NCBI GenBank assembly: GCA_030428885.1
Contig: JAUIEJ010000002.1
Coordinates: 126,501-190,500, forward strand
DNA: 64,000 nt
From: Gemmatimonadota bacterium
GTDB taxonomy: Bacteria > Gemmatimonadota > Gemmatimonadetes > Longimicrobiales > Gaopeijiaceae
Direction: 5' to 3'
The notes beneath the pieces were generated by a model that did no database searches, had not been told where the DNA came from, and saw only the letters and a program-made list of their open reading frames with translations. Position numbers and translations under genes: made by a program. Every line of letters starts with the position of its first letter. Position 1 is the first letter of the stretch. Positions 8,141 through 13,186 of the stretch are shown in pieces.

Positions 8141-8797
8141 ATGCCCGACTCCCCCGCCCCCCTCTCGGCGAGATTCCGCCAGGCCACCGCGGACGACCAC
8201 CGCCGCGCCGAGGGACGGCCCTTCGTCCAGGACCTCCTCCGGGGGCGGCTGGACCTCGAGGCGTACGTGTGGCTCCTGCGCGACCTGCTGGAGGTCTACC
8301 AGGGGCTCGAGAGCGGTCTGGAGGCCGCCCCCGAAGGCGCCCTCCCGCCACCCCTGGCGAGTCCCGCGTTGAGACGAGCGCCGGCTCTGGAGTCCGATCT
8401 CCGGCACCTCCACGGCGACGATTGGCGCACCGGGCTGGAGGTGTCCCCACCGGCTCTGGAGTACGGAGAGCACCTTCGGGGGCTGGCCCGGAGTTTTCCC
8501 CAGGGTTTGGCCGCCCACGCCTACGTGCGGTACCTGGGCGACCTGAGCGGCGGTCGGATCGTGGGGAGACAGGTCCAGAAGGCCTTCGGCCTCGCCGAGG
8601 ACCACGGTCTCGCCTTCTACGCCTTCCCCGACATCGACGACGTCGACGCCTTCAAGGCCCGCTTCCGAGGGGCGCTGGACCGCCTGGGCCCGGAGAGCGA
8701 TGCCGAGGCCCTCGTGGAAGAGGCGCGACGGGCCTTCCACCGGAACGGGGCCATCTTCGAGGAACTTCAGCGCCGCCGGGCCGCCCGGGCGCCCTGA
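8141..8797 (+). CDS. bphO: heme oxygenase, probable biliverdin source for the bacteriophytochrome
   Basis: 218 residues from ATG 8141. The proximal heme ligand is His20 in the TADDHRRAEG helix, and the distal helix carries the hallmark YVRYLGDLSGGRIVGR with its flexible double glycine. The family opens heme to biliverdin IXalpha, CO and iron. Its stop (8797) abuts the stop of the bacteriophytochrome gene (8799) on the other strand, so the chromophore-making and chromophore-using genes are convergent, not co-transcribed. The symbol is given on context; the enzyme family is certain from motifs. Confidence 0.92.
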   Translation: MPDSPAPLSARFRQATADDHRRAEGRPFVQDLLRGRLDLEAYVWLLRDLLEVYQGLESGLEAAPEGALPPPLASPALRRAPALESDLRHLHGDDWRTGLEVSPPALEYGEHLRGLARSFPQGLAAHAYVRYLGDLSGGRIVGRQVQKAFGLAEDHGLAFYAFPDIDDVDAFKARFRGALDRLGPESDAEALVEEARRAFHRNGAIFEELQRRRAARAP

Positions 8798-8798
8798 A

Positions 8799-10976
8799 TC
8801 ACCCGTCCCCGTCGACCTCGGCGTCCCGGACGATCTCCTCCAGGAGGCGACGACTCCGCTGGACGGACACCTCCAGCGTCCGGATCGCCTGAGACGCATC
8901 GGCGACCTCGATCCCCTGGGCGAGTTCGAGCGCCGCGAACGCCGCGTTGTCCAGCAGTCCCTCCAGGATCTCGCCGACCTCGGGCGTCCTCGCCGCCGTG
9001 AGGGGATCCCGGGCCGAATCGACGATCCTCTTGAACCGCTCCCGGGCCACGAGGGCGGCGCGCTGGTGCGAGAGGTCGTTGAACATGACCACGTACCCGA
9101 GGGTCTCGGCCGGGCCCGACCCGATGACGTCGGCCCGGACGAACACCGGCCGCGGCGCACCTTCGCCGCTACGCAACGACAGCTCGGACCGACACATGTG
9201 ACGCTGGTCCAGCACCCGGCGACAGAGGCCGAGAAAGCCCTCGGGCGACACGAAGAGGGTACTCAATTCCTCCAGCGGACGTCCCACCCAGGGCCGCTCG
9301 CCGAAGAGCCCCTCGAAGCCCCGGTTGGCCAGGGAGATGCGCCCGTTGGGTTCCACGATGGCGGCGGGATGCCCCGACGCCCGGACCATGTCGTCCACCT
9401 GCCGGAGCTGGTCCCGTGCGATGAGCATCCGGACCGCGCGGAACTGAAGCAGCACGTCGCCGACGGAGTTGCCGGCGAGCCGACCGAACGCCAGATCCGC
9501 TTCCGACCACCGGGCCGAGGTCCCCTCCACGAGCTGGTGCCACTGGGCGAAAGAGCGGCGCGGGGACAGGCTCTTGAAGTCGTGGGCCTCGATGACCGCC
9601 TCCGACGGATCCCCACCCCAGGTCACCGTGTGGACCTGTTCGGGCCGGAACCACATCAGCCAATCGTGCTCCGAGGCCGAGATCCGGGCCGCCATGATCC
9701 CCGCCGCGTGAGAGGCGACGTGGTCGAACGCGGGCCACTCCGAGGCCAGGGACGACGTGGCCACCACGTCGCCCTCGAAGTCCAGACCGGAGAGATGCCG
9801 GGCCAGCGCCTTGATGTCCCGCGTCGCCGGGACCTCCCCCACCACGAACACCTCGTCGTCGCAGAGGAGGGCCGCCCCCGTGGCGGCCACCGGTCCGAGG
9901 AGGTGGGCCGGCTCGTCCAGGAGCGGCCGGCGCCAATCGCCCTCCTCCGAGACCGACTGGGCCATGCGCTGCTCCAGGGTCCGCACCCGCAGCTCGGCCT
10001 GGATCCGGGTGAGGCTCGTCAGCGCCGAGATCCGGACGCCCAGCATCTCGGAGAGGAGTTCGGCCAGTCCGCGCAGGTCCGGCGCCGGGACCCGGGGCGC
10101 GTAGTGGTGGCAGGCCACCAGCCCCCAGAGCTTGCCGTGCACCATGATGGACGCCACCAGCGTCGCGGCCACCCCCATGTTGCGCAGGTACTGGAGGTGG
10201 ATCGGCGACAGGCTGCGGAGCGCGCACATGGACATGTCCAGGGAACGGCCGTCCAGGGGCGACTCCACGGGCACAACCGGCTGCTCCACGTAATCCACGT
10301 CGCCCAGGATCCGCACCCGGTTCCGGACGTAGAGGGCCCGGGCCCGCTGGGGAATGTCCGACGCCGGGTAGTGGTTCCCCAGGAACGGCTCGAGATCGAC
10401 GCGCCGATCTTCGGCGAACACCTCGCCGTGCCCGTCTTCGTCGAAGCGGTAGACCATGACCCGGTCGTAGCCCGACACGTTCCGGAAGAGCTGGGAGAAT
10501 CCGGCGCACAGACTGTCCAGCGACACCGCGGTCGACACGTGGTCGAGCACGGCCGAGAGGGCCGAGAGCCGGTCCGGCGGCTCCTCCGGGGCGGGCTCGA
10601 GTTCCACCGCGACCCCCTGTCCCGGAATGCCGTGGACGGTCGCCACCCACGGGCGCCCCGCCAGGTTCACCCGGCCGTGGACCACGTCGTCGGCATCCCC
10701 GCTGCCCCGGACTTCCCCGACGAGACGGGCCGCATCGTCACCGACGGCGGTGGCGAGGGGGGAACCGAGGACCGCCTCCGGAGGCCGACCGAGAAGGTCG
10801 TCGACGTTGGCGCTGACCTGGACGACCCGGTCGTCGTCGTCCACCACCACGAGCAGACCGTGGGGCTGAATCGACCCCGGAATGTGGATCTGCTCGTGTT
10901 CGCACGTGGCCAGGTCCGCCTGACCGAACGGGGTCTCGGTGGCACCGGGAGGGCGGCTCACCACGGGGTCATCCAC
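8799..10976 (-). CDS. bphP: bacteriophytochrome, PAS-GAF-PHY with PAS output and no kinase
   Basis: 725 residues. The biliverdin-binding cysteine is Cys25 (DLATCEHEQIH), followed by IPGSIQPHG. The GAF domain has PASDIP at 204-209 (Asp207), SPIHLQYL with His260, and ACHH with His290. The PHY tongue is SPRRSFAQW at 471-479. After PHY come a PAS domain (about 525-640) and a C-terminal helical segment; no histidine kinase or ATPase domain follows. That layout matches the BphP1 type that binds PpsR directly. The GTG start at 10976 overlaps the ppsR stop by eight bases, so the two are translationally coupled. Confidence 0.95.
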   Translation of the reverse strand: MDDPVVSRPPGATETPFGQADLATCEHEQIHIPGSIQPHGLLVVVDDDDRVVQVSANVDDLLGRPPEAVLGSPLATAVGDDAARLVGEVRGSGDADDVVHGRVNLAGRPWVATVHGIPGQGVAVELEPAPEEPPDRLSALSAVLDHVSTAVSLDSLCAGFSQLFRNVSGYDRVMVYRFDEDGHGEVFAEDRRVDLEPFLGNHYPASDIPQRARALYVRNRVRILGDVDYVEQPVVPVESPLDGRSLDMSMCALRSLSPIHLQYLRNMGVAATLVASIMVHGKLWGLVACHHYAPRVPAPDLRGLAELLSEMLGVRISALTSLTRIQAELRVRTLEQRMAQSVSEEGDWRRPLLDEPAHLLGPVAATGAALLCDDEVFVVGEVPATRDIKALARHLSGLDFEGDVVATSSLASEWPAFDHVASHAAGIMAARISASEHDWLMWFRPEQVHTVTWGGDPSEAVIEAHDFKSLSPRRSFAQWHQLVEGTSARWSEADLAFGRLAGNSVGDVLLQFRAVRMLIARDQLRQVDDMVRASGHPAAIVEPNGRISLANRGFEGLFGERPWVGRPLEELSTLFVSPEGFLGLCRRVLDQRHMCRSELSLRSGEGAPRPVFVRADVIGSGPAETLGYVVMFNDLSHQRAALVARERFKRIVDSARDPLTAARTPEVGEILEGLLDNAAFAALELAQGIEVADASQAIRTLEVSVQRSRRLLEEIVRDAEVDGDG

Positions 10977-12312
10977 TCGGGGATGAGTCCAGGTCGTAGC
11001 GGGACAACTTGGTGTAGAGCCCCTGCCGGCTGAGCCCGAGCAGTTCGGCCGCGGCCGTCCGGTTGCCCTCGGTCATCTCCAGGGCATCGGCGATGAGCTG
11101 GCGTTCCACGAGGGCGATGGTGCGGGACACCAGCGCCTTCAAGCTCGTCTTGCCGATCTCCCGGGAGAGCCCCTCAAGAGCACCGGCGAGTTCCCGGGAG
11201 GGCGGACGATGTTCCCCGAGGCGCCGGCCCACGTCCCGCAGGAGCAGGGCGAAGCGCGAGGCGTCGTCCCCCACCGCCACGGCCGAGATCTCCACCTCGG
11301 TGCTGGAACCGAATTCTCCCAGCACGTGGGTGGTGAAGAGATTCACGGAGCCGTAGCGCCGGACCATGGACTGGAGAACCGTGAGGTCGGCCCCGGGACG
11401 GCCCAACCACCGGGACAGGTTCTCCCCCAGAGCCTCTTCGGGCGCCCGCAGCTCCACGAGGGTGAGGAAGCGCCGGTTGACCCGGAGCACCTCCCCATCG
11501 TCGGCGATGAACACCATGGCATCGGGAATCCGGTCGAAGAGATCCCCGAGGTCGATGCCGCCTTCGGCCGAAGGCGCGGCGGCGCCGCCCTGCCCCAGAT
11601 GGACGAGAAGCAGCGGGTCCGCGTCTCCCGACATGAGGGCGGCCCGGAGTTCGAACGGCTCGGCATGTCCCACCAGCCGCACCACGAGGGGTGCCGACCG
11701 GCCCGTGTCCCGCGCACGGAACAGGTGGTTCCGGACCCGGACCCGATCCGACACGTGGAAGAACCGGTCGAAGGTGCGCGGGGCGCTGGGACCCGTCTCA
11801 CCCGTGAACTGGAGCAATTCCTCGGCAGCCGGATTGGAGTCGACGATGCGGAGGTCGCTCGAATCCAGAACCACGATCCCTTCGGGCGAACGATGGAAGA
11901 GGAGTCGGTAGCGGGTCTCGATGTCCCGGAGGCGCCAGTGGTCTCGCTCCAGCGCCTGCTGGGCGCTCACCAGACGCTGCTGGAGATCGCTCACCACCAG
12001 GAGGCTGCGCCCCACCGCGATCAGGCCACCCGACGCGTCCACCCGGACCACCGAGTATTCGACGGGGACCTCGGAGCCGCTGGGCATGGTGTGGTTCACC
12101 TGCCGGAAACCCGAGACCCCGCTCTCCCGGGCGTCGGAAACCAACCGCTGGATCTTGGCCCGGGTGGCGTCGGTCACCGTGTCCGCCCAGGGCCTTCCGA
12201 TCCACGAATCGGCCGATTCAGCAGCCAGTGCGACGCCGAAGGCGGCATCGTCGATGATGCCGTCCGCATTCACCCTCAGCGTCACATCTGCACTACCCGA
12301 CAGCGGAATCAT
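10969..12312 (-). CDS. ppsR: PpsR/CrtJ family regulator (tandem PAS, Fis-type HTH)
   Basis: 447 residues from ATG 12312. Three PAS-like regions can be followed: about 5-105, 130-240 (RYRLLFHRSPEGIVVLD) and 262-375 (LFDRIPDAMVFIADDGEVLRV). They are linked by a coiled helix (LQQRLVSAQQALERDHWRL), and the C-terminus is a Fis-type helix-turn-helix (EGNRTAAAELLGLSRQGLYTKL). This is the PpsR architecture, a repressor of bacteriochlorophyll, carotenoid and antenna genes that binds TGT-N12-ACA. It contains no cysteine, so the thiol redox switch described for purple-bacterial PpsR cannot operate. It lies between ppaA-like and bphP genes. Confidence 0.92.
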   Translation of the reverse strand: MIPLSGSADVTLRVNADGIIDDAAFGVALAAESADSWIGRPWADTVTDATRAKIQRLVSDARESGVSGFRQVNHTMPSGSEVPVEYSVVRVDASGGLIAVGRSLLVVSDLQQRLVSAQQALERDHWRLRDIETRYRLLFHRSPEGIVVLDSSDLRIVDSNPAAEELLQFTGETGPSAPRTFDRFFHVSDRVRVRNHLFRARDTGRSAPLVVRLVGHAEPFELRAALMSGDADPLLLVHLGQGGAAAPSAEGGIDLGDLFDRIPDAMVFIADDGEVLRVNRRFLTLVELRAPEEALGENLSRWLGRPGADLTVLQSMVRRYGSVNLFTTHVLGEFGSSTEVEISAVAVGDDASRFALLLRDVGRRLGEHRPPSRELAGALEGLSREIGKTSLKALVSRTIALVERQLIADALEMTEGNRTAAAELLGLSRQGLYTKLSRYDLDSSPSG

Positions 12313-12355
12313 GGCACTCTGATTCGGAAGCCCGAGGTCCGCGCCTCGCAGACCC

Positions 12356-13186
12356 CTACGCTTGAAACTCGGGCTTGTACCTCTGGGGAACAAGCTCCTG
12401 CAACAGATCGAGGGCGGTTTCGGCGTCTCCGGCGACCCCGTCGGCCCCCAACGGCGAGACCCGGTCGGGGGCGGTGGCGGCGAGGGCCCCCCCGACCAGG
12501 ACCACCAGCGACGGATTGGCGGCGCACGCCCGGGCCCGTCGAATCGTCGAACGGGCGGCCGAGAGGCTCCTCTCCGATCCCACCGATACGCCCAGCACCA
12601 CCACACGGGAGTCCCGGAGTCCCGCTTCGACCCGACTCCAGAACGGCGCGACGGGAACCACCGCCCATCCGCGGAACCGCAGCACGGCATGAAAGAGCAG
12701 CGCCCCGAAGGTGTGGTCCTCGCCGGTCGGAGTGACCAGGAGGATTCTCGGCGCGTTCGGCCCCGCCGTCGGCGCCGGAGAACGGGAGAGGATCCGATGC
12801 AGGAGTTGCTGGAGCTTCCCGGTGGCCACCGTCACGTCGACGAAACTCCGGGCGTCCTCCTCCCACAACTCGCCCAGGCGTTGGGCGGCGGGGGTGAGGA
12901 GGCCCAGAAGTACGTCGTCGGCGCGGATGCCGGCGGCCACGAGCTGATCGATGACCGCCTGGATCGTGTCGGAATCGCCCCCGGCGAGGAGGTCGAGGAA
13001 GCGGTCGAGGAGGGCGTCGTCGTCCGACCGCCAGTCGATCCTTCCCTGGGACTCAGCCCGGAGCGCCCCAACCAGGGCTGCCGACAGTGTCGGGAGCACC
13101 GTGGGAGGGGACACGGCCCGCGTCCGGGGCAAGGGAGAGCAGCGCGCGGGATACGCGCGGGGAGCGGCGATGCTCTGAGGATCCAT
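12356..13186 (-). CDS. ppaA: PpaA/AerR-like cobalamin-binding antirepressor
   Basis: 276 residues from ATG 13186, with GAGG upstream. The first ~60 residues look disordered. A helical B12-binding cap follows (residues ~60-150, with GDSDTIQAVIDQL and LLTPAAQRLGELWEED), then a Rossmann-like B12 domain with PTGEDHTFGALLF. The E-x-H-x-x-G there is the form seen in PpaA/AerR-type short B12 proteins, not the D-x-H-x-x-G of methionine synthase. In purple bacteria AerR/PpaA uses light-sensitive cobalamin to counter CrtJ/PpsR. The adjacent ppsR makes that role likely. It is the first gene of the three-gene operon. Confidence 0.87.
   Translation of the reverse strand: MDPQSIAAPRAYPARCSPLPRTRAVSPPTVLPTLSAALVGALRAESQGRIDWRSDDDALLDRFLDLLAGGDSDTIQAVIDQLVAAGIRADDVLLGLLTPAAQRLGELWEEDARSFVDVTVATGKLQQLLHRILSRSPAPTAGPNAPRILLVTPTGEDHTFGALLFHAVLRFRGWAVVPVAPFWSRVEAGLRDSRVVVLGVSVGSERSLSAARSTIRRARACAANPSLVVLVGGALAATAPDRVSPLGADGVAGDAETALDLLQELVPQRYKPEFQA

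Follow-up and report, generated by a model that had tools for sequence, protein, structure and literature searches.

A four-gene regulatory module in a 64,000-nucleotide stretch of a Gemmatimonadota genome (assembly GCA_030428885.1, contig JAUIEJ010000002.1, positions 126,501 to 190,500; hereafter the window) is best explained as a PpsR2–BphP1–BphO–AerR control set through which a purple-type phototrophic gemmatimonad would respond to light and cobalamin, the core of its photosynthesis gene cluster (PGC) being unassembled. We place the probability of this reading at roughly 0.8. The gene identities, gene order and clade placement, as well as the PpsR boxes and the bchJE and pucBAC genes found elsewhere in the genome, are read directly from sequence. 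The module itself is not part of a PGC but an isolated chromosomal locus, and consists of the following genes:

8141–8797, plus strand: bphO, a biliverdin-producing heme oxygenase of 218 amino acids (Pfam PF01126 Heme_oxygenase, 167 bits, residues 7–208).
8799–10976, minus strand: bphP, a type-3 bacteriophytochrome of 725 amino acids (Pfam PAS_2-GAF-PHY-PAS_4, a C-terminal helical stretch, no kinase domain).
10969–12312, minus strand: ppsR, a PpsR2-type PAS repressor of 447 amino acids with a Fis-type helix-turn-helix (TIGR02040 and PDB PpsR 4hh2).
12356–13186, minus strand: ppaA/aerR, a cobalamin-binding antirepressor of 276 amino acids and the first gene of the operon (PF02310 and PF02607).

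The ppaA, ppsR and bphP genes lie head to tail, with a gap of 43 bases from the end of ppaA to ppsR and an 8-base overlap between ppsR and bphP, and the stops of the convergent bphP and bphO genes are separated by one base. Domains, order and strands at these positions bear out a preliminary description of this DNA, which had proposed a ppaA-ppsR-bphP operon with a convergent heme oxygenase. The assignment of BphO follows from its heme oxygenase domain and its linkage to bphP. An Rfam scan of the window gave no match.

PpsR matches the TIGR02040 PpsR-CrtJ model over its full length with 408.5 bits (cut-off 275.4) and is composed of PAS_4, PAS_8, PAS and HTH_8 domains (Pfam). It groups with the bphP-linked (PpsR2) clade with an SH-aLRT support of 96, in a quick tree and on a long branch, and is found apart from the PpsR proteins of Gemmatimonadota PGCs; this placement, together with an adjoining type-3 bphP, characterizes the PpsR2 subgroup. 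The protein contains no cysteine, and thus lacks the redox-active cysteine of the PpsR/CrtJ family. Most PpsR2 proteins are likewise without cysteine (PMC6899989), and its absence points to the PpsR2 subgroup and not against membership in the larger family. We assign the window protein to the PpsR/CrtJ family and to its bphP-linked PpsR2 clade, and predict that it binds DNA and represses transcription.

BphP harbors a PAS-GAF-PHY sensor, an N-terminal cysteine and a PAS output domain and has no kinase, the arrangement of type-3 bacteriophytochromes. Its closest relatives in the PDB are RpBphP1 structures (4gw9, 560 bits; 5oy5, 486 bits), with the next family at 296, and Cys25 aligns with the corresponding N-terminal motif cysteine of 4gw9. 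In a BphP tree, the window protein clusters with proteobacterial BphPs, away from the four type-3 BphPs of Gemmatimonadota. We classify it as a type-3, kinase-less BphP1, for which light-dependent binding to PpsR2 is predicted. In a second genome of the class (G257, contig C80, about 611–2760 of locus L182), a type-3 bphP near a PGC has a TGA inside the match and is possibly a recent pseudogene.

PpaA is most similar in the PDB to AerR (7te2, 73.9 bits), harbors the B12-binding domains PF02607 and PF02310 and adjoins ppsR, all of which are hallmarks of AerR/PpaA proteins; no NCBIfam model scored above its cut-off. The GEQH histidine of 7te2, taken as His145, has His158 as its aligned counterpart, and the N-terminal stretch of PpaA, where the long form of AerR has His10, contains no histidine. 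The preliminary description had placed these two regulators in the PpsR and AerR/PpaA families, an assignment with which the TIGR02040 match, the AerR match and the PpsR tree all agree.

As that description had also observed, no bch, crt, puf or puh gene is found in the window, but the implied absence of photosynthesis genes from the genome does not hold. Contig C2 harbors bchJ (153 bits, cut-off 74) followed by bchE (796 bits, cut-off 481), and contig C18 harbors an LH2 operon, pucB-pucA-orf-pucC, at ≈41.7 to 44.2 kb (L198 10746–13173). The best PDB matches of the LH2 beta and alpha proteins encoded by pucB and pucA are LH2 chains (83 and 78 bits, respectively), the PucC match reaches 476 bits, and the gene between pucA and pucC (orf189) has no assigned function. 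The organism therefore possesses antenna and bacteriochlorophyll genes (pucBA, pucC, bchJ and bchE) of the kind expected in a purple-type phototroph, although a genome-wide search for bch genes, pufLM and acsF returned no core gene, pufLM or acsF. The suggestion that a photosynthesis cluster lies elsewhere in the genome is thus upheld for bchJ-bchE and pucBAC, which carry PpsR boxes, and not for the PGC core, which is not in the assembly. The puc operon is closest to a locus of an alphaproteobacterial Methyloceanibacter metagenome-assembled genome (L101), with 82, 70, 35 and 68% identity for pucB, pucA, the orf and pucC, respectively, a likeness that suggests horizontal transfer of the antenna genes. 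A limited check of the literature turned up no account of LH2 genes of the proteobacterial type in Gemmatimonadota.

The search for TGT-N12-ACA boxes proposed in the preliminary description locates such boxes at the bchJE and pucBAC promoters, as expected for targets of a PpsR/CrtJ regulator in the same genome. A box at C2:4778 is found upstream of bchJ-bchE and a second one follows 7 bases on (region C2:4778–4820), such that the tandem TGT boxes cover TTGACA-N17-TATGTA, i.e., both the −35 and the −10 elements; a box at C18:41619–41636 starts 127 bases before pucB and covers the −35 element. The pattern TGTMA-N8-TKACA, which describes the PpsR boxes that accompany photosynthesis genes in related Gemmatimonadota, is not enriched over the whole genome (12 sites with one mismatch allowed versus 20 for a control pattern). 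A weight matrix built exclusively from boxes in other genomes, and scored on 1.08 Mb of this genome partly chosen via the earlier pattern hits, nonetheless ranks the bchJ and pucB promoters as its top two sites (24.6 and 23.4, with the next at 16.2), and the second bchJ box ranks fourth. The same arrangement recurs in a reaction-centre-bearing genome of the same genus (G228): bchJ, bchE and an oxidase gene follow one another as they do here, the two BchE proteins share 77% identity, and a tandem pair of boxes occupies the corresponding position upstream of bchJ. Boxes are also found before bchE in three further genomes (G135, G260 and G257), and a box in the PGC of G228 matches the puc box at all but one base. 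No box was found near ppaA, bphO or crtB-crtI, and self-regulation is therefore not predicted. Finally, paired perfect TGT-N12-ACA boxes occur four times in the genome, most convincingly at the hipBA promoter, the other three pairs falling inside predicted coding frames; none was retained as a PpsR target. At C2:346653–346698 (L153 1501–1546), the start of hipB-hipA, two 18-base sites form an almost perfect inverted pair that conforms to the PpsR-box pattern; this pair is probably a HipB operator.

To place the genome in the context of its class, we surveyed 295 genomes, including that of the window (G000). PpsR is found above cut-off in 27 genomes and a reaction centre in 22, with five genomes (G066, G195, G000, G156 and G230) having PpsR but no reaction centre. 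G066 and G195 carry parts of a PGC, and in G000, G156 and G230 PpsR is found outside any PGC. All ten other genomes that harbor bchE possess a reaction centre; in G090, which is a single contig, bchE lies ≈3 Mb away from the reaction-centre genes, and a bchE outside the PGC is therefore normal in this class. In G195, ppaA is followed by a bchH piece of ≈187 amino acids and by bchL (L042, 6–14 kb), bchN and bchB are missing and the genome has no reaction-centre or DPOR/COR match; this locus looks like a decaying PGC.

The preliminary description had also proposed that the module was kept or repurposed in a non-phototroph, controlling other genes such as the nearby glycan or stress genes. A window free of photosynthesis genes is consistent with this view, as is the occurrence of an orphan PpsR in G230 and G156, both of which are devoid of reaction-centre and DPOR/COR matches. 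In the window, however, TGT-N12-ACA is no commoner than chance (two sites versus 4.1 expected), one of the two sites is inside ppsR, and the top-scoring boxes in the sequence scored are those at bchJE and pucBAC; we consider repurposing very improbable and find no support for the neighboring genes as targets. G230 and G156 are better candidates for repurposing. G230, which is 99% complete, has an orphan PpsR (L043) and encodes a type-3 BphP with a convergent BphO on a separate contig (L183 9722–12508), with no reaction-centre, DPOR/COR or bchE gene found in the genome. In G156, an orphan PGC-type ppsR is divergent from a crtI-like gene (L040 12401–15500), with no TGT-N12-ACA box between the two.

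Several observations weigh against a phototroph with an unassembled core. The assembly is 95.4% complete in 23 contigs (1.6% estimated contamination), and neither a reaction-centre (PF00124) nor a DPOR/COR (PF00148) gene is found in it. A joint search reveals no bchL, bchG, bchP, acsF or bchH, contig ends contain no cut PGC genes, and the matrix finds no box at the module's own promoter. The PpsR and BphP proteins are also found on long branches in their trees, such that any transfer of the module, if there was one, would be old. The failure to find pufLM and a bch core is not a clean negative and may reflect gap or loss, since hemA and hemB are also not found in the joint search. This search recovers all of bchL, bchG, bchP, acsF, bchH, hemA and hemB in the phototrophs G228 and G260, and both hemA and hemB in the non-phototroph G050. 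The hem cluster of G056 is absent from the syntenic place in contig C1, and the sole hemA of G228 sits on its PGC contig. A missing hemB besides the PGC argues for, but does not prove, missing sequence; the absence of hemA is a weaker argument for a gap, and was dropped as proof of one, since near-complete relatives G006 and G230 also lack a hemA match. On balance, we infer that a PGC core exists and is likely absent only from the assembly.

The same absence of core genes from a fairly contiguous assembly could record a very recent loss, with the regulators, bchJE and pucBAC as leftovers not yet decayed; a reaction centre is absent from two genomes of the same genus, G050 and G056, and G195 indicates that PGC decay happens in the class. 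Against such a loss, bchJ, bchE, pucB, pucA and pucC are intact and have box-bearing promoters, no other genome among the 295 has bchE without a reaction centre, and the absence of hemA and hemB is not explained by losing phototrophy. We regard recent loss as unlikely. There is a similarly small chance that the reaction centre and bacteriochlorophyll core are truly absent from the cell, with a far-red and B12 switch retained over the LH2 operon and bchJE, which would represent a half-dismantled and still controlled photosystem. Contamination of the bin by another phototroph, from which the bchJE, pucBAC or module contigs would derive, might account for the alphaproteobacterial affinity and shared gene order of pucBAC (82, 70 and 68% identity to L101). 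However, the contigs concerned are large (740, 367 and 616 kb), the contamination estimate is low, BchE and its gene order match those of G228, and the puc box is one base off a box in the PGC of that genome, making this explanation extremely improbable.

Two further observations concern chromosomal structure. The crtB-crtI junction, adjacent in this genome (contig C1, ≈118.6–130 kb, L159), was considered as the scar of a PGC deletion and rejected, since the phototroph G228 of the same genus also has adjacent crtB and crtI, with its PGC elsewhere. In G260 (contig C34, L045–L048), the PGC is located between crtB and crtI, and PGCs thus occupy different chromosomal sites within one family. The window's own contig contains a run of 2500 N far from the module (C8:1–20000, L213), which could reflect either a gap in the scaffold or masking.

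For the unassembled-core reading, the mechanism and the direction of regulation are modeled on R. palustris, Bradyrhizobium and Rhodobacter. BphO would make biliverdin, which BphP would bind; far-red light would shift BphP to the Pr form, which would bind PpsR2 and lift repression, and PpaA/AerR with cobalamin would modulate PpsR2. PpsR2 is predicted to occupy the TGT-N12-ACA boxes over the −35 and −10 elements of bchJ-bchE and over the −35 element of pucB-pucA-orf-pucC, and probably also acts on the missing PGC. At its core this picture is ordinary: the regulators are a familiar set and the host is probably a phototroph. What is uncommon is the location outside a PGC, a PpsR2-BphP1 operon that includes ppaA, the host phylum and the link to a Methyloceanibacter-like LH2 operon. 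The result would be a gemmatimonad equipped with the far-red switch of Bradyrhizobium and R. palustris, predicted to act at boxes before bchJE and an LH2 operon, and suggests that the phylum can acquire light regulation and antenna genes independently of the core cluster. The case is also a caution that a phototroph with an unassembled core can be misclassified by a search for reaction centres alone.

To compare the module with known systems, we sought PpsR relatives in one genome per species (84,980 species). In many proteobacterial loci a type-3 bphP comes after ppsR and converges with bphO, the order of the window, and most of these are found among PGC genes, as in the PGC blocks of Bradyrhizobium, Rhodoplanes and Pelagibius. 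Where no PGC genes are in view, the genomes have reaction centres, with the exception of L124. A ppsR-bphP pair from a contig that bears the title Solirubrobacterales bacterium 70-9 (Actinomycetota; L090) is nested among proteobacterial sequences in both trees, reflecting either transfer or a mislabeled contig. The window module shares with RpBphP1/RpPpsR2 of Rhodopseudomonas palustris and the bphP-linked PGC blocks a kinase-less type-3 BphP, the PpsR clade and a PpsR without cysteine, as in most PpsR2 (PMC6899989). In the R. palustris and Bradyrhizobium type, far-red light drives BphP1 to the Pr form, the HOS helices of which bind PpsR2, and photosynthesis genes are turned on (PMC6899989). 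The module differs from these PpsR2-BphP1-BphO blocks in lying outside a PGC, in having ppaA first in the operon and in its gemmatimonad host, and its proteins are only ≈40 to 47% identical.

In Rhodobacter capsulatus, the TGT-N12-ACA sites recognized by CrtJ include those of bchE and puc, with tandem boxes over the −35 and −10 elements of bchC (PMC5362033), and AerR with cobalamin alters the seating of CrtJ on promoters (PMC5362033, PMC6199135). The present genome shares with this system boxes at bchE and puc, a tandem layout and an AerR-type partner, whereas CrtJ senses redox via cysteines that the window PpsR does not have, and the long form of AerR has a His10 with no N-terminal counterpart in the window PpaA (PMC6199135). 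The Methyloceanibacter locus L101 has the same pucB-pucA-orf-pucC order as the C18 operon, but shares its contig with bch genes and ppsR, whereas the C18 operon stands alone. Finally, Gemmatimonadota PGCs have a ppaA-ppsR-bchG order with no bphP beside ppsR. The PGC of cultured Gemmatimonas phototrophica, whose photosynthesis genes are barely regulated (PMC11406998), shares the order of ppaA and then ppsR with the window; it differs in harboring both genes inside the PGC, in having no bphP beside ppsR and in encoding a PpsR of another clade.

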